21,422 bases of DNA from a virus: IMG/VR virus record IMGVR_UViG_3300027777_001340, positions 1 to 21,422 of that record; one strand, written 5' to 3'. The translations under genes and the position numbers were made by a program. Shown piece after piece: positions 2,246 through 10,816 of this stretch (position 1 is the stretch's first letter; the number at the start of each line of letters is the position of its first letter). The notes under the pieces were generated by a model. That model did not search any database. It was not told where the DNA came from and saw nothing but the letters and a program-made list of their open reading frames with translations.

Positions 2246-2275
2246 ATTATACCTCTTTTACCCTATTCTTGTCAA
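2246..2275 (-). promoter_or_regulatory. Perfect sigma70-type promoter for the terminase operon
   Basis: Read on the minus strand, TTGACA (2275-2270) and TATAAT (2251-2246) are separated by 18 bases; both hexamers match consensus exactly. The site lies in the 3' end of the DUF1599-like gene. Only five bases lie between the -10 box and the ATG at 2240, so the expected start point is at or next to that ATG, giving a leaderless mRNA. It would drive the FmdB-like, small terminase and large terminase genes. Confidence 0.75.
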
Positions 2276-2588
2276 TAGCAATTTTAAGTAAGATTAAATA
2301 ACCAATCAAATCATCAACATCATTATCTCCTGCAAAGCCTTGATTATTTTGAATACGATTTAATTTATCATCAATTCTTACTTTAAGCTGCTCTACATTA
2401 TCAGATTGAGCAAAGATCCTATTTGGAGATAAAGCAGAATCACCATAAGATATATTTTTATCTATAAGCAACTTTGCTATTTCATGACAAGCATCCCATA
2501 TTTTTTTTCCTGAAGGGGCACCTGTAGAATGCAAGTATAAATCTCTACAACTAAATTGTTTTACATCAGGATATACTGGATTGAGCAT
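2247..2588 (-). CDS. DUF1599/NMAD1-like (MazG-like) protein
   Basis: 113 residues, mostly helical. The segment SYGDSAL (47-53), then RIDDKLNRI (71-79) and DDLIGYLILL (92-101), matches the pattern of DUF1599, also called nucleotide modification associated domain 1. It also resembles phage all-alpha NTP pyrophosphohydrolase-like proteins. The acidic D73/D74 and D88-D93 residues are candidate metal ligands. Members are suspected to act on nucleotides in pathways that make modified DNA bases or clean the dNTP pool; none of this is shown here. It overlaps the preceding glycosyltransferase by 23 bases and is thus the last gene of the sugar cassette transcript. The assignment is from remembered family pattern, not from a search. 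Confidence 0.55.
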   Translation of the reverse strand: MLNPVYPDVKQFSCRDLYLHSTGAPSGKKIWDACHEIAKLLIDKNISYGDSALSPNRIFAQSDNVEQLKVRIDDKLNRIQNNQGFAGDNDVDDLIGYLILLKIAIDKNRVKEV

Positions 2589-3252
2589 TATTTACCTTTA
2601 TTCTTTCTACATTGTGAATTGTTGTGGTCATACGTAAATCCCCACCAATTGGTTCAACATTTGGTTTAAAAGTATATGAGTTTAAGCTTCCATGCTTATA
2701 AAACATGTATATGTCAATTGGATCTGATATTAAATTTTCTTGTACATTTTTAACAATAGATTCGACACCAGATCTATTCAAAATATATCCTCCAAGCCAC
2801 TGACCTTGATAAGATTTGCATATAATATCACTACCTATATCATGAATAGACTTTTTATAATATGGTGGGTTCCAATTTAAAAAGAAAAATGCTTGCCAAT
2901 CTGATGGTATTTGATTTATTACATCATCAATTCTTTTCCAAAAATCTTGATAGATATAAACATCATCTTCAAATAAAACAAGATACTCTTTATCAGTTTT
3001 TAAAAAATTAATCCAAGCGTTGTAATTACTTGCCCATACACCAATTTCTGCATATCTAAATTCTATACTTGGATCTAATTTAAATAAAGGATTTTCCAAT
3101 TTAAATTTTTTTAATTGTTCTTCATTAGATATTTCATATGAAATGCATTCTAATTCTTTAGAATTAGAAGACATAATGTTATTTATTTTATTTACTACTG
3201 GCTTTCTATCAACACTTTTTTCCATATGAATTACTTTATGGGTAAATGACAT
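2566..3252 (-). CDS. GT25-like glycosyltransferase
   Basis: 228 residues from the ATG at 3252, which shares its A with the preceding stop (TAATG). A start seven codons earlier is possible but would overlap more. The layout recalls family 25 (LOS/LPS galactosyl-type) transferases: a segment EIGVWASNYNAW near 69-80 in the place of the family's conserved GCxxSH region, then LVLFEDDVYI (91-100) with an EDD nucleotide-sugar/metal motif. A later WLGGYILNRSG segment resembles the family's acceptor-side loop. It is predicted cytosolic, using a nucleotide sugar; donor and acceptor are unknown. It is AT-rich like its cassette neighbours. Confidence 0.6.
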   Translation of the reverse strand: MSFTHKVIHMEKSVDRKPVVNKINNIMSSNSKELECISYEISNEEQLKKFKLENPLFKLDPSIEFRYAEIGVWASNYNAWINFLKTDKEYLVLFEDDVYIYQDFWKRIDDVINQIPSDWQAFFFLNWNPPYYKKSIHDIGSDIICKSYQGQWLGGYILNRSGVESIVKNVQENLISDPIDIYMFYKHGSLNSYTFKPNVEPIGGDLRMTTTIHNVERIKVNNAQSSIS

Positions 3253-4259
3253 TACATAAGCCTTTCTGACCAAGTTTTAGGAGTTTTATCTGTTATAAAT
3301 TCTAATGGTAGGTGGTAGCTAAATGGTCTTGCTCCTTTTATTTTAATCCATTCCGCCAATTCTGTCAAGCCTGATTTAAGAGTTGTAGATGTTTTATAGT
3401 TTAATAACTGTCTTGCTTTATCAGCAGAACAATTGGCATGTTTAACTTCTTGAGGTCTGCCTGGCATGTATATTGAATTTAATTCAAATCCAAGTATTTC
3501 AGCAATTTTTTCAGCTAGTTCATTAATTGTAATAAATTCTTCATCTGGTCCAATATTAACAATTTGCCCATCAACTGCATCTGTTTCACATGCAATCATT
3601 AGTGGATCAATTACATCTTGCATAAATGAAAAAGAACGCATTTGAGAGCCATCACCATAAATAATTGGTTGATTACCTTGAAGCATACGATTAATCATAA
3701 TTGATGCTACATTTCTATAAGGATCATCAAACTTTTGACGTGATCCAATTATGTTATGTGGAACCAAGATTACATATTTCATGCCGTGAGTTTCGCATAT
3801 ATTTTTAATTAAAAGTTCTGCAGAATATTTAGCAATACCATACGGGTCTTGTGGTTTTGGTGTCATGTCTTCTGTAAATGGAACTATATCTTGTGTTCCG
3901 TATCTAGCCATAGAGGACATATGAACAAACTTTTTGACCCCCGCCCTAATAGATGCGGATACTGCAACAGTTGTAATGTGAGATGTATTGCGTGTTACAA
4001 GAGCTGGGGAGAATACAGAAAGTCCTTCATAAGCAGTACATGCAGTATGAACAACAAGGTCTACTCCTTTAAAATGATCTTTGATTGCATCAAAATCTCC
4101 CAGATCTTTTGCATAAAATTCTACACCGCTTGGAACATTTTCATAGTAACCACCTATTAAATTATCAATTCCAATTACTTTGTAGCCTTTTGCAAGAAAT
4201 TCATCTGCAAGATGACTTCCCATAAATCCTGCTACTCCTGTTATTAATACTTTTTTCAT
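3252..4259 (-). CDS. NAD-dependent sugar epimerase/dehydratase (extended SDR)
   Basis: 335 residues from the ATG at 4259, which overlaps the upstream stop as ATGA; a longer start would run into that gene. The N-terminus has the Rossmann motif TGVAGFMGSHL (G8, G11, G14), an acidic end of beta-2 (D32, NAD-type), a catalytic serine region (S115/S116) and the Y140-x3-K144 pair. This is a full extended short-chain dehydrogenase of the UDP-glucose 4-epimerase or dTDP-glucose dehydratase type. It would remodel a nucleotide sugar for the neighbouring glycosyltransferases. Epimerase or dehydratase cannot be settled: the residue before the second catalytic serine does not decide it. Length is normal for the family. 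Confidence 0.88.
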   Translation of the reverse strand: MKKVLITGVAGFMGSHLADEFLAKGYKVIGIDNLIGGYYENVPSGVEFYAKDLGDFDAIKDHFKGVDLVVHTACTAYEGLSVFSPALVTRNTSHITTVAVSASIRAGVKKFVHMSSMARYGTQDIVPFTEDMTPKPQDPYGIAKYSAELLIKNICETHGMKYVILVPHNIIGSRQKFDDPYRNVASIMINRMLQGNQPIIYGDGSQMRSFSFMQDVIDPLMIACETDAVDGQIVNIGPDEEFITINELAEKIAEILGFELNSIYMPGRPQEVKHANCSADKARQLLNYKTSTTLKSGLTELAEWIKIKGARPFSYHLPLEFITDKTPKTWSERLM

Positions 4260-4789
4260 AATGTTTTGTAATAATCCTCTCCAAATTGTCCCCAATTGCC
4301 TTTCCATTTTTCAAACATTTCATATTCTTCAATTAAATTTTCTCTGTCATGTTTAAAAACTCCCCAAGTTTCTTTTCTTGGAGTTGGATAGCAAGTAAAT
4401 TTTTCACAAAGATCAACATATGGTCTTGGAAAAGCTTCTTCATTAAACATTGATTCTGCTTTGTTTTTTGATTCAGGAATTACCATTTTTGATAAAGTTT
4501 TTCTTTCATAAAGTCCAAGATAAGAATTCATATGAAATCCATTATCTGCTAAACAAACAGAACCCTCAATATCAAACATGCTCATAAGTAAATCATTATT
4601 TTTAACCACTATACTATCTTGAAGATAGATAAATCTTTCTATAGATGTATTATCATAAATCCATTTTATATGACCAACTTCAAATCCTGGAGTTGATACA
4701 ACAATTGCAGGAACTTTTAAAGATTCCAGGCAGTCGTGCACCCATTTTTCTCTTCCAATATTTGTACCTACAACAATTGCATTTTTCAT
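4256..4789 (-). CDS. Unrecognised cassette protein, possibly GT-A-like
   Basis: 177 residues, no family recognised with certainty. It opens with a beta strand (NAIVVGTN) and a predicted helix. It later has FIYLQDSIVVKNNDLL (53-68), where QDS at 57-59 stands where glycosyltransferase A-fold enzymes have their DxD. The C-terminal third is rich in aromatic and charged residues (W142, W163, W166). There is no signal peptide or membrane segment. It overlaps both neighbours by ATGA, so it is made with the epimerase and the cytidylyltransferase. A reduced or divergent glycosyltransferase is the best guess, held with low confidence. Confidence 0.45.
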   Translation of the reverse strand: MKNAIVVGTNIGREKWVHDCLESLKVPAIVVSTPGFEVGHIKWIYDNTSIERFIYLQDSIVVKNNDLLMSMFDIEGSVCLADNGFHMNSYLGLYERKTLSKMVIPESKNKAESMFNEEAFPRPYVDLCEKFTCYPTPRKETWGVFKHDRENLIEEYEMFEKWKGNWGQFGEDYYKTL

Positions 4790-5214
4790 TTGTTTAACCT
4801 TTTTTTAATTTCTGTTGATGAAATTGTTTTAGTATATGGGACATAACAAAGCCCTATACTTCTTTCATCTAGCCAATCTTGATCAAAATTCATTTGCTTG
4901 TAATAATCTTTTTTAGCCCAATCAGATCCTATAACAATATAATCTGGCATTGCTAATTCTATAGAAATTTTAGAATCCGACCCGCCAACATTCAAAACAA
5001 CTTTGTCAACATACATGCAAGATTCAAGAACAGATTTTCTTTCTTCTTGACTACACACTGGAAATTTACCTTTATATTTATATATAAACTCATCTGTATT
5101 TAAAGAAACAACAACAATTCCATTATTACCAGCAATTTCTTTACATCGTTTTAATAAATTTACGTGACCAGAATGAAATAAATCAAATGTACCACCAGTA
5201 TATACAATAGACAA
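4786..5214 (-). CDS. TagD/RfaE-like cytidylyltransferase
   Basis: 142 residues, the normal size of glycerol-3-phosphate cytidylyltransferase. Hallmarks: GGTFDLFHSGH at 7-17 with the HxGH nucleotide-binding signature (H14, H17), and ISSTEIKKRL at 131-140 matching the family's ISST motif. It should join CTP (or ATP) to a phosphorylated polyol or sugar with loss of pyrophosphate, giving a CDP- or ADP-activated donor. Substrate cannot be told from sequence; glycerol phosphate, ribitol phosphate, phosphoethanolamine or heptose phosphate are all used in the family. The start is TTG, placed directly after the stop of the preceding gene with no gap and a weak ribosome site, so translation is probably coupled. 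Confidence 0.88.
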   Translation of the reverse strand: MSIVYTGGTFDLFHSGHVNLLKRCKEIAGNNGIVVVSLNTDEFIYKYKGKFPVCSQEERKSVLESCMYVDKVVLNVGGSDSKISIELAMPDYIVIGSDWAKKDYYKQMNFDQDWLDERSIGLCYVPYTKTISSTEIKKRLNK

Positions 5215-5988
5215 CTATGCTATCCATTCTGTCAATAAATGTTTATTTTCTTTTATATATTCTGGATAAGAATTATCTATGTTAACTATAGATAGATTAT
5301 TCCAACCTCTTTGCAAAATATCTTCAACATTATCTATTCTACTTTGAAGTATTTCAACAGTGTTAAAATCATTATTATTAAATTCTTGATGTGAAAAAGC
5401 TTCAATTTTTTCTTTAATTTTATCTACTGTTTTTATATAGGAAAAATGCCAGCCACCATTTTGAATTCCTGGCATAGATTCATTTTGACGATGTGCATCA
5501 AAATTAATAAATTTTCCATAAGAAATATATTTGGGTCTCCAACTATTTTCTGATGTAATTATATTAAATTTATAATAATAGCAAGGGCCTAGAAAAGAAC
5601 CTCCGTTTTCATCAAAACCGTTTTTCTTCAAATCTTCAACCACAGATCTTCTTGGAATCTCATCTGCATCTGCAAAAAGAATAAGATCTCCGTCATCAAG
5701 ATTTAAAAATTTTAAATTTTCTTTAGATAAGTGATCTTTTTGAAAATATTCTCTTTGCCAAACATCCTCATATTCGGAGCGTTCTGCTACAATAATTTCA
5801 ATTTTATCAGAATATTGAGCATATCTTTCTTTATAACACTCTGATAAGTATAAAGGTTTTTCTTTACCAGAAAATGTTTCTTTTGCTTCCATAACAACAA
5901 ATTTATCAACTACATCATACAATTCTCTAAATCTAACATCTAAAATTAAAAATTCATCAAAAAACGGGAAACAATCAATTACCTTCAT
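5215..5988 (-). CDS. Family 17 glycosyltransferase (GT17)
   Basis: 257 residues. The opening IDCFPFFDEFLILDVRFREL followed by a VVMEA...TFSGKEKPL stretch is the characteristic N-terminal block of GT17. That family includes the animal beta-1,4-mannosyl-glycoprotein N-acetylglucosaminyltransferase MGAT3 and many phage and bacterial homologues. DLILFADADEIPRR at 101-114 holds the DAD metal/nucleotide motif (107-109), and GGWHFSY near 178-184 is also typical. Donor is probably a UDP-sugar. It starts in an ATGA overlap with the preceding gene and ends flush with the TTG start of the cytidylyltransferase. The acceptor is unknown. Confidence 0.85.
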   Translation of the reverse strand: MKVIDCFPFFDEFLILDVRFRELYDVVDKFVVMEAKETFSGKEKPLYLSECYKERYAQYSDKIEIIVAERSEYEDVWQREYFQKDHLSKENLKFLNLDDGDLILFADADEIPRRSVVEDLKKNGFDENGGSFLGPCYYYKFNIITSENSWRPKYISYGKFINFDAHRQNESMPGIQNGGWHFSYIKTVDKIKEKIEAFSHQEFNNNDFNTVEILQSRIDNVEDILQRGWNNLSIVNIDNSYPEYIKENKHLLTEWIA

Positions 5989-6665
5989 TTTATAAGACTC
6001 CTAATCTTATTAACATCATCTGCAAAAGATGATTGCTTATAACTATTATACCTTACTTCATCTTCCTGCATATTACCTGCGGCTTTATATGTATCATCAA
6101 AATTATTTTTTCCATTTGTATAATGATTATGCTCAAGATTTACATCAGGAAAATAATGTAATATCCCAAGCTCTTTGCCTAAATCTTTATAAAAATTATC
6201 CATATAAAAATGATTTAAAACTGGTGGAACAAACCATCCTAAAGATTTTATAATTTCAGAATTAACTATAAATGTATTAGGTAATCCTTCACCATGATAA
6301 TAATCGTTGCCATATGAAATGCCAACTTTATTTTTTAATGGTTCTACCAATATACTGTCCCAGCCATAAGTATTTACTTTAACATCATCCCCGATAAAAC
6401 AAATATATTTATATTCATTTACAAATTGATTTGCTATAAAATTAATTTTAGGACATAAACGCATGTTTTTGTTAACACTATAAATTACATCCTCTTCAAT
6501 CCCATAGGATTCAAAATCATCATCATCAAGTCCAAAACAAATGTCTGAAATTGTTGAATTTTTTTTAAATAATTCATAAAAATGTTTAATTTTTTCAGGC
6601 CTTCCACGGGATGGCAATATAACTAAAATTTCATTCTTATTCACAATATCAATTAAACCATTCAT
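5985..6665 (-). CDS. GT-A-fold glycosyltransferase-like protein
   Basis: 226 residues. It begins with a typical GT-A first strand (ILVILPSRGRPEKI), then has an acidic FGLDDDDF block (44-51) and YICFIGDDVKV (87-97) with GDD in the DxD position. A later FPPV/HFYMDNFYKDL-type region and D-x-N-L-E-H-N-H stretch resemble the acceptor side of inverting family 2-like enzymes. No membrane segment is visible. It overlaps the GT2 gene upstream by 17 bases and GT17 downstream by ATGA. The fold call is good; the exact family and sugar are not known. Confidence 0.65.
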   Translation of the reverse strand: MNGLIDIVNKNEILVILPSRGRPEKIKHFYELFKKNSTISDICFGLDDDDFESYGIEEDVIYSVNKNMRLCPKINFIANQFVNEYKYICFIGDDVKVNTYGWDSILVEPLKNKVGISYGNDYYHGEGLPNTFIVNSEIIKSLGWFVPPVLNHFYMDNFYKDLGKELGILHYFPDVNLEHNHYTNGKNNFDDTYKAAGNMQEDEVRYNSYKQSSFADDVNKIRSLIK

Positions 6666-7368
6666 TTTTTCTCCTGCGATCTAAATTCCAGCCTCTATTT
6701 ATATGATTGTTTTTCTTTTCATAAAAATATTCTCTATTTAAATTATCTGTTATTGAATTTCTTGTCATAAACAATTCATTATTTTTATATGATTGTGAAC
6801 CACCTTCTAAAGCAAAAGCATCAGCATTAATTATATGTATTTTAAAACCTTCATCATAAAATCTATCTGTATAATCTTCATCTTCCCAATAAACTGGATA
6901 AAAAAATTCATCAAACAATCCAGTTTCCTTAATTATATCTTCTCCCAAACTAAATATATTGTATTGTTGCGTTTTTGTAAATACAGCTCTATCGCTTTTA
7001 CTTTGTGCTGCAAACTCTCTAAGTGTTCCTGGTTTTGTTACAGTATCATTAGATCCAAACATCCAATATTTTACATGTGGATAAAGTTTAATGCCTAAAT
7101 TCCAAGAAGCTGCACATCCTAAATTTGATGGCAAATTTAAAATTCGAATATTTAAATTAGGAAATTTTTCTTTAAGACCTACAGTGTTGTTGTCATTATG
7201 ACTATTATTAATAATTAAAATTTCATTTATTGGATGATCAATTGCTTCAAGAGATTTTTCAAGTAAATCAAATTTATTTATTACAGGATAAATTAAAACT
7301 GGTATTGATTCAATATTTTCATCTGTTGTTGAATCTAAATTCACGCAATCATAATTTGGAAAATCCAC
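6649..7368 (-). CDS. Family 2 glycosyltransferase
   Basis: 239 residues with a GTG start (7368) that shares its G with the TAG stop of the small HTH gene. The GT2 pattern is clear: IPVLIYPVINKFDLLEKSL (22-40), EILIINNS (49-56), SNLGCAASWNLGIK (81-94, the usual N-x-G-x-a-x-a-x-N-x-G block), FGSNDTV (104-110) in the DxD position and an acidic YWEDEDYTDR (160-169) in the catalytic-base position. It would transfer a sugar from a nucleotide donor. It is the first gene of the sugar cassette. No upstream alternative start is available, so the GTG is probably real. Confidence 0.85.
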   Translation of the reverse strand: MDFPNYDCVNLDSTTDENIESIPVLIYPVINKFDLLEKSLEAIDHPINEILIINNSHNDNNTVGLKEKFPNLNIRILNLPSNLGCAASWNLGIKLYPHVKYWMFGSNDTVTKPGTLREFAAQSKSDRAVFTKTQQYNIFSLGEDIIKETGLFDEFFYPVYWEDEDYTDRFYDEGFKIHIINADAFALEGGSQSYKNNELFMTRNSITDNLNREYFYEKKNNHINRGWNLDRRRKNEWFN

Positions 7369-7529
7369 TACTTAGTCCATTTTCTAGGTTTTTTTATAAA
7401 GCCATGTTGTTGCAATACTCTTTGAATAGTCATGTGAGAGCAATTAGCTTCCATTGCCATTTCACGAATTGTTTTTTTCTCAAGCACATATCTTTTATGT
7501 ACCCAAGCTTTACTATCATATAATTTCAT
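7368..7529 (-). CDS. 53-residue helix-turn-helix protein
   Basis: Frame read directly: ATG at 7529, stop TAG at 7370-7368. The protein is basic. It has a predicted HTH in its middle (KKTIREMAMEANCSHMTIQRVL, about residues 18-39), resembling the short response elements of IS-type transposases and phage regulators, and ends in a basic tail KKPRKWTK. It overlaps the resolvase gene upstream by 14 bases and the GT2 gene by 1 base, so it is embedded in the operon. It likely binds DNA; target unknown. It may be a small regulator or a nuclease-associated DNA-binding piece. Confidence 0.7.
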   Translation of the reverse strand: MKLYDSKAWVHKRYVLEKKTIREMAMEANCSHMTIQRVLQQHGFIKKPRKWTK

Positions 7530-8073
7530 TGACCGCATACCAAGCTATTCCCGCCGCATCAGCGACATTATCGGACTGAGTTTTAACGCCCAGCGTTCTA
7601 CTAAATTCAATAGTGCGTTGTTTTCTACGCTCTCTGATTTTTCCTTTGATCCATGTGTCGGATTTTTCGGGGAACTCATTTTTTATCGCCTGCTTCTCTA
7701 TTTTGTTAAAGTTTTTATTACCAATATATGATTGCCAGGTTATAGGATGAACTTCAACCACTTGCATATTATCACTAAGTAACTCTCCCATTATAGCACC
7801 AAATACGTATGCCATCTTAATTCCCGTATGAACAGATTTTACAGATATGGCTGCTTCTATGACAACAAAATCTGTATCAAGCTCTTTTTTAAAAGCTTTA
7901 ATCTTTCTTTTTGCATCAAGTATCCTTTGATAAACATCTAAACCTTCAAACGTAATCTCACCCCATTTAATGGCTTTTTTATTTTCCATTAAACAAAAAG
8001 CAATACTATTAGTGCTAGCATCTATGCCTAAAACCCTATTTGATCTTGGTTTAATTAATTTTGCCAGAGACAC
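7516..8073 (-). CDS. ruvC-like: RuvC-like Holliday junction resolvase
   Basis: 185 residues with a GTG start at 8073. RNase H-fold motifs in RuvC order: VLGIDAST with D18, VVIEAA with E73, and SDNVADAAGIAWYA with D168 and D172, giving the four-acid active site. A basic stretch around 143-155 (KGKIRERRKQR) could contact the DNA junction. It should cut four-way junctions made by RecA-driven recombination and remove branches before packaging. It overlaps the zinc protein upstream by 23 bases and the small HTH gene downstream by 14 bases. Confidence 0.85.
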   Translation of the reverse strand: MSLAKLIKPRSNRVLGIDASTNSIAFCLMENKKAIKWGEITFEGLDVYQRILDAKRKIKAFKKELDTDFVVIEAAISVKSVHTGIKMAYVFGAIMGELLSDNMQVVEVHPITWQSYIGNKNFNKIEKQAIKNEFPEKSDTWIKGKIRERRKQRTIEFSRTLGVKTQSDNVADAAGIAWYAVNEII

Positions 8074-10288: not shown

Positions 10289-10816
10289 TTATTTAACACA
10301 TCTCAATTCCCAAACTAAATGATATGGTACATTAACATCCCAATGTTGTGATATTAATTCAAACGCCCCGTTAAAACCATATTGTCTTCCAAGTCTTATT
10401 GAATAATGGTCCCAATTATTAGAATGTGTAGGGTTAACAAAATAATTTACTGTTTTTTCAGTAATAACATTAACATGTTGGGGATCTTGAAAAGCTTCAG
10501 GGTGAGGATATGCTGGAGTATGAAATCTAGCAATTCCACCTACTTTTAAAACACGAGAAACTTCACTCATTAAATCAATAAACGGTTGAGTTCTTTTCCC
10601 ATTAACATTAAAAATTCTTGGTATATGCTCAATAAAATCATATCCCGTTACATAATCAAATACACTATTTTCAAATGGAATTTTTTCAAAAGCAAGGTCG
10701 GCAATACGAATGTTATCATTTCCAACATTGGCAATATCAATTCCATAAAACTTATCTGCATTATAAGGATTTTTTGGTGTTTCTCCGCAACCCAAGTCTA
10801 AAGTTTTTGTAATCAT
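10289..10816 (-). CDS. SAM-dependent methyltransferase (class I)
   Basis: 175 residues. The SAM-binding motif LDLGCGETPKNPYNAD (7-22), the acidic end of strand 2 (YGIDI), a motif II-like DYVTGYDFIEHIPR and a motif III-like RVLKVGGIARFHTP place it in the Methyltransf_11 group. It lacks the DPPY/NPPY and PC motifs of DNA N6/N4 and C5 methyltransferases, so DNA bases are not the obvious target. Small molecules or sugars fit better, which would link it to the distant sugar cassette. Its ATGA overlap with recA puts it in the recombination transcript. Confidence 0.8.
   Translation of the reverse strand: MITKTLDLGCGETPKNPYNADKFYGIDIANVGNDNIRIADLAFEKIPFENSVFDYVTGYDFIEHIPRIFNVNGKRTQPFIDLMSEVSRVLKVGGIARFHTPAYPHPEAFQDPQHVNVITEKTVNYFVNPTHSNNWDHYSIRLGRQYGFNGAFELISQHWDVNVPYHLVWELRCVK

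Follow-up and report, generated by a model that had tools for sequence, protein, structure and literature searches.

Our analysis of a 21.4-kb virus record (IMGVR_UViG_3300027777_001340, referred to here in its full length as the window) points, with a probability that we place at about 0.65, to an exchangeable virion-glycosylation cassette of an actinobacterial phage at positions 2527-7369. The annotated genes that we examined in the window all lie on the minus strand. In the direction of transcription they include those for DnaB, primase, SSB, DnaE, RecA, a methyltransferase, a Cas4-like exonuclease, and RuvC; the sugar genes follow, and after them come a small helical protein, a zinc-ribbon protein, and the small and large terminases. 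Because DnaE of the window is 56% identical to that of Streptomyces phages and 11 of the 12 large relatives carry WhiB, actinobacteria are the most likely hosts. The gene order from primase to terminase is common to the window and Streptomyces phage Gilson.

The cassette occupies an exchangeable slot with sharp borders

We gathered relatives with four baits, namely, the cytidylyltransferase-like protein of the cassette (here called the activator), the small terminase, the large terminase (TerL), and the border protein phrog_1485, and retained 136 nonredundant loci, each with a complete RuvC-to-terminase interval. This interval ranged from 182 to 6046 nt and held 84 arrangements of 56 protein clusters, counts that are approximate owing to simple calling of open reading frames (ORFs). 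The closest backbone relatives of the window (identities of 97% for TerL, 92% for RuvC, and 91-92% for RecA) carry two or three different genes in the slot. In the pair L185 and L189, the flanks of ∼4 kb have identities of 98.0% on one side and 94.7% on the other, and unrelated stretches of 1987 and 4142 nt lie between. Among the pairs with flanks at least 90% identical (n = 25), the slots had identical sets in 12 and no family in common in five.

The left breakpoints fell between −6 and +17 nt from the end of a helix-turn-helix (HTH) gene in 10 of 10 pairwise comparisons. Measured from the start of the phrog_1485 gene, the right breakpoints in the cleanest comparisons were located at 0, 0, +12, +56, and +61 nt; as for the remaining right-border comparisons, three break later, with an extra downstream indel, one is without a phrog_1485 gene, and L005 shares the cassette. 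In 97 of 106 loci, the slot genes had a lower GC content than the flanks (p = 2.5e-17). Besides the border genes, the slot families are mainly glycosyltransferases (GTs), SDRs, a sugar epimerase, and FkbM or other methyltransferases. These data show a slot whose content is exchanged between sharp borders.

Genes of the cassette

The first-pass annotation, made from the letters alone, had described seven coupled sugar genes that end in a DUF1599-like gene. The eight ORFs are present on the minus strand, tightly packed, and the last gene does overlap its predecessor by 23 bases (2566-2588). The seven sugar genes are borne out by Pfam matches for GT2, GT17, the activator, SDR, and GT25 and by phrog_14945 for the GT-A-like protein, and the idea of a phage-borne set that activates and transfers sugars or related groups is likewise supported. 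The limits given for the cassette need correction, however, in the start of the SDR gene (4307, now 4259), in the omission of a 56-codon HTH gene directly before GT2, and in the inclusion of the last gene. The features are as follows.

7368..7538, minus strand: helix-turn-helix gene of 56 codons; conserved, marks the left edge of the swapped slot and has no role among the sugar genes
6649..7368, minus strand: GT2 glycosyltransferase (PF00535, 8e-7; phrog_29879, 1e-29); GTG start, 1-nt overlap with the HTH gene
5985..6665, minus strand: GT-A-like glycosyltransferase (phrog_14945, 3e-44)
5215..5988, minus strand: GT17 glycosyltransferase (PF04724, 3e-32); also in some capsid-adjacent cassettes
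4786..5214, minus strand: cytidylyltransferase-like nucleotidyltransferase, the activator (PF01467, 3e-17); HxGH kept, RTxGxSTT changed to PYTxxISST
4256..4789, minus strand: miniature GT-A glycosyltransferase of 177 aa, by predicted fold; QDS where DxD would be expected; paired with the activator
3252..4259, minus strand: extended SDR nucleotide-sugar epimerase/dehydratase (PF01370, 9e-49); start corrected from 4307
2566..3273, minus strand: GT25-like glycosyltransferase (PF01755, 2e-8; phrog_16010, 1e-9)
2247..2588, minus strand: small all-helical protein, phrog_1485; right slot border, a backbone gene outside the cassette
10289..10816, minus strand: S-adenosylmethionine (SAM) methyltransferase (PF08241, 3e-5); probable outlying member of the cassette

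The HTH gene gave hidden Markov model matches in 221 of the collected loci. Its PHROG matches are HTH parts of phage DNA-binding proteins and HNH endonucleases, and gp77 of Gilson, annotated as HTH, occupies the corresponding place. Homologues of the GT-A-like protein were found in L005, in L119, and in the Streptomyces phages Gilson and Jay2Jay. The nearest solved relatives of the SDR are annotated as UDP-glucose 4-epimerase and similar enzymes; its start is most likely at 4259, which gives an ATGA overlap with the preceding gene, and its homologues have ∼334 residues. None of the cassette proteins has a transmembrane-like stretch (maximum 19-residue hydropathy of 1.18), so the enzymes are probably cytosolic.

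Only contig L005 carries nearly the same set, with six of the seven families in the order methyltransferase-GT-A-like-GT17-activator-mini GT-A-SDR-GT25, the methyltransferase replacing GT2. The window homologue of this methyltransferase sits outside the slot (10289-10816), where it is an insertion relative to L168, L088, and L173. It is a probable outlying member of the cassette because its homologue lies inside the L005 slot, adjoining the GT-A gene.

We note that phrog_2675, which is labeled DNA methyltransferase, aligns in its N-terminal part with a glycosyltransferase and in its later part with a methyltransferase (window 5985-6665; L143:7336-7959). This family may be a GT-methyltransferase fusion with a misleading label.

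The right border gene belongs to the phage backbone

The last gene had been taken for a DUF1599/NMAD1-like member of the cassette, an assignment that was not supported. By hmmscan, none of 52 phrog_1485 homologues matched Pfam DUF1599 (PF07659) at an E value of 1 or below, and two large relatives gave subthreshold PF07659 hits (12.2-12.6 versus 25 bits). The gene persists in slots without sugar genes (12 of 15, versus 104 of 121 slots with them; Fisher p = 0.46). Nine of these 12 empty slots came from the small-terminase search and were therefore not chosen for carrying the gene. With the breakpoints at or just inside its start, the phrog_1485 gene is a backbone gene, independent of the sugar cassette, and its 5′ end marks the right border.

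The model of the phrog_1485 protein has four helices (pLDDT of 88), and a search with it gave no significant fold match (best Foldseek E value of 3.1). The alignment with AF_0060 (2p06; Z of 5.2, rmsd of 3.5, 78 aligned) scores lower than helical bundles can by chance alone; HISN2 and AF_0060 turned up among weak fold hits only. A role like that of the all-alpha NTP pyrophosphatases (MazG/AF0060-like) would be a guess from this model.

In the alignment, two types of N terminus stand on a conserved phrog_1485 core, MLxPVYxD...DLYLH and YPxR...SWITDLQLIA (window 2490-2588), as expected if the 5′ end of the gene swaps along with the cassette. A second phrog_1485 protein is encoded a few genes upstream of an activator-GTA pair on an unrelated phage contig (L074:2858-3142).

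HNH genes lie near both slot borders in L185 (5630-6211, 8691-9296) and L189 (3475-4056, 8691-9296), common to both though the cassettes differ, and one lies near the left border in L291 (520-1116). HNH endonucleases as the engine of exchange were considered and dropped, as they occur at the borders of only three slots.

A putative activator and the transferase encoded next to it

The activator falls within family PF01467 (63.4 versus 21 bits), with HSGH in its translation as the HxGH motif. Its best solved relatives are ethanolamine-phosphate (EPT), glycerol-3-phosphate (TagD), and choline-phosphate (CCT) cytidylyltransferases. While it thus resembles TagD, Pcyt2, and CCT, it differs from them in reading PYTKTISST where RTxGxSTT is expected, with loss of the Arg, and at 79.6 bits it stays under the 165.4 cut-off of the TagD equivalog TIGR01518. 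A motif survey showed that the PYTxxISST change is shared by nearly all relatives of the activator, with two exceptions. CDP-glycerol is a possible product, judging from the family; no CDP-glycerol-type polymerase or glycerophosphotransferase family was found among the slot proteins scanned.

The first-pass annotation had held that independent scattering of the genes in relatives would speak against a cassette. Most of the genes do shuffle, but one adjacency holds: in 36 of 37 slots the activator is directly followed by GT25 (25 slots) or by the mini GT-A (11 slots). This constancy suggests that the transferase after the activator uses the activator's product.

In L058 (3323-4081), a 253-residue protein encoded between RuvC and the HTH gene is APS-kinase-like in its N-terminal part and has a weak cytidylyltransferase-like match further on.

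A predicted miniature GT-A family found in viral contigs only

The 177-aa ORF gave no match in Pfam, PHROG, or NCBIfam. Its model (pLDDT of 87.6) matched TarS in Foldseek (E value of 9e-5) and TarP with a Z of 11.2 and an rmsd of 2.8 over 140 aligned residues, and 304 chains were matched at a Z of at least 8. The predicted fold is that of a compact GT-A glycosyltransferase, in line with the earlier suggestion that this ORF might be one. The DxD metal motif is absent, and a near-invariant QDS stands at what would be the equivalent site in 77-79 of 80 homologues. A single-sequence search with the mini GT-A found nothing in viral contigs or cultured phages. The alignment-based profile found 134 loci in viral contigs and, at the sensitivity used, no match in 84,980 bacterial and archaeal species genomes. 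We also tried a mini-GT-A-like domain in the N-terminal part of a 475-residue GT25 protein, which was not supported.

Our literature searches returned no description of this cassette. Three features appear to be novel: the pairing of activator and transferase, the glycosyltransferase family seen only in phages, and the exchange site with its sharp limits.

Cassette families recur beside capsid genes in other phages

In 52 of 80 mini GT-A contigs, the mini GT-A gene stands beside genes for the major capsid protein (MCP), the connector, or the tail tube. The commonest order there is MCP-GT4-GT2-activator-mini GT-A-connector, where the last is the head-tail connector; several orders occur, sometimes with GT17. 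GT2, the activator, the mini GT-A, and sometimes GT17 thus recur next to capsid genes, which makes three or four of the seven families in the cassette. The MCP was assigned by PF05065 (3e-36 and 3e-52) and the connector by PF05135, both also by PHROGs. The annotated phage phiPsal1, with the order MCP-GT-methyltransferase-GT2-neck, backs this assignment.

Taken together, the linkage to capsid genes elsewhere, the lack of membrane segments, the absence of PF00303 from 12 large relatives, and the precedent of mycobacteriophages (see below) make a virion protein the most likely acceptor, by gene neighborhood. A virion protein was among the acceptors offered by the first-pass annotation and gains from the capsid linkage; modified DNA bases, offered beside it, lose from the PF00303 result.

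Several points weigh against virion glycosylation. The 52 contigs with capsid linkage come for the most part from a single group of related phages and are not 52 independent events; because of this relatedness, we treat them as one strong observation, reshuffled internally. In the group to which the window belongs, the slot adjoins packaging (terminase) genes and not a capsid gene, and among the 80 contigs with a mini GT-A there are six in which the module comes after an exonuclease gene, an order also seen in Arthrobacter phage Mimi. A few slots (L204:3310-3861 and L034:9837-10868 are examples) carry a deoxynucleoside monophosphate (dNMP) kinase or an IMPDH/GMP-reductase-like gene, either replacing sugar genes or next to them, and protein glycosylation explains neither. 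The virion acceptor, the donor nucleotide, and the substrate are all putative in this phage group.

What the enzymes may act on

In the mechanism that we favor, the cytidylyltransferase-like protein would activate a phosphorylated small molecule (a sugar phosphate or phospho-alcohol) with a nucleotide, probably CTP, as its family suggests. The paired mini GT-A, or in other phages the GT25-type protein, would transfer the activated group, consistent with its fold and constant adjacency. The SDR would make a modified nucleotide sugar, GT2, GT-A, GT17, and GT25 would add residues in the cytoplasm, and the methyltransferase at 10289-10816 may cap the glycan. Where the genes sit in other phages suggests that the acceptor would be the major capsid protein or some other protein of the virion, modified before the particle is assembled or while it is. 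Related phages exchange the cassette as a whole; one junction is at the stop codon of the HTH gene and the other at the start of the phrog_1485 gene. The route is presumably recombination in the conserved flanks, and related phages would thereby carry different coats.

A bolder form of this reading, which we offer only tentatively, is that a two-enzyme module (the activator and a phage-only 170-residue GT-A with QDS) may put an unusual nucleotide-activated group, possibly a phospho-alcohol, on capsids, and that the HTH/phrog_1485 slot may be an active site of coat exchange, a phage counterpart of serotype switching.

It is unlikely, in our estimate, that the enzymes instead modify the host envelope, altering a cell-wall glycan during infection to block superinfection. 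Such a role has been proposed for the variable glycosyltransferase islands of pelagimyophages (PMC7029224), the best fold matches of the mini GT-A, TarS and TarP, glycosylate wall teichoic acid, and the activator resembles TagD. However, the GT-A fold matches are general and not specific, the cassette has no membrane-spanning stretch, and a scan of slot families showed neither a flippase nor a polymerase. A location between capsid and connector genes also argues for a late virion role.

Slightly less likely still is DNA hypermodification, with sugars added to hydroxylated bases of the phage DNA to shield it from host nucleases. Phage glycosyltransferases are known to glycosylate DNA, and such a role has been proposed for freshwater actinophages (PMC10202952); a dNMP kinase is present in some slots and in Gilson, and the border protein may, from its weak partial similarity to AF_0060, be nucleotide pyrophosphatase-like. 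The first-pass annotation had tied that border gene to DNA base modification, but its presence is independent of the sugar genes. PF00303 (thymidylate synthase and pyrimidine hydroxymethylases) was found in none of the 12 large relatives, in a search whose control was positive in nine of 14 genomes; the window itself is a 21-kb fragment. A search for Tet/JBP gave no match, with its control silent as well. The same enzymes between capsid and connector genes in other phages also speak against a DNA target.

Least probable of all is a neutral hotspot, in which the gap between replication and packaging genes gathers unrelated cargo and sugar genes are common without a shared function: some slots do contain genes for an HNH endonuclease, an IMPDH-like protein, or a dNMP kinase, and some are empty of sugar genes, but the annotated families are mostly glycan-related, the activator-transferase adjacency is nearly invariant, and the same module is kept at a different location in other phages.

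Comparison with known systems

According to the accounts of Freeman 2023 given in PMC12363180 and PMC12619734, the glycosyltransferases of mycobacteriophages Che8, Corndog, and Myrna glycosylate capsid and tail tube. The present system resembles theirs, as there described, in its actinobacterial phages, its phage-encoded soluble glycosyltransferases, and structural proteins as the likely acceptor. It differs from what those accounts describe, where capsid and tail-tube glycosylation was shown, in being known from genes alone and in having a multienzyme cassette with an activator, an epimerase, and a new small GT-A in a swapped slot.

Among the Stanwilliamsviridae (Streptomyces phages Gilson and Jay2Jay), Gilson has HTH-GT-GT-CYT between RuvC and terminase, where CYT is an activator homologue of 57% identity. 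These are soil phages of Streptomyces, and no GT17, mini GT-A, SDR, or GT2 of the kind in the window was found in their slot. Pontimonas phage phiPsal1 is similar in that its major capsid and neck genes are separated by genes for glycosyltransferases, GT2 included, and a methyltransferase; it differs in belonging to another phage group and in lacking a cytidylyltransferase and a mini GT-A. The host-recognition islands of pelagimyophages (PMC7029224) are likewise hypervariable, fixed in position, rich in glycosyltransferases, and found in aquatic phages. However, they lie among tail-fiber genes and have been taken as host-surface modification (PMC7029224), whereas the slot described here has sharp borders and no fiber genes were seen inside it. 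T4-type DNA glucosylation differs in its PF00303 pyrimidine hydroxymethylase, the family missing from the 12 large relatives.

Many phages encode glycosyltransferases, and what these enzymes act on is usually a matter of guesswork. The link between a glycosyltransferase set and a capsid gene in a second phage group leads to a testable acceptor. Such sharp swapping of cassettes, between phages with identities of up to 98%, suggests that a diverse particle surface is selected for. These phages of environmental actinobacteria have no immune system to evade; candidate selecting agents are adsorption, grazers, and particle stability.

The activator and glycosyltransferases also occur in a third setting: in L059, L062, L064, L072, and Mimi (L297), they lie downstream of a gene for an exonuclease, which is MRE11 in Mimi and a PHROG exonuclease in the others.

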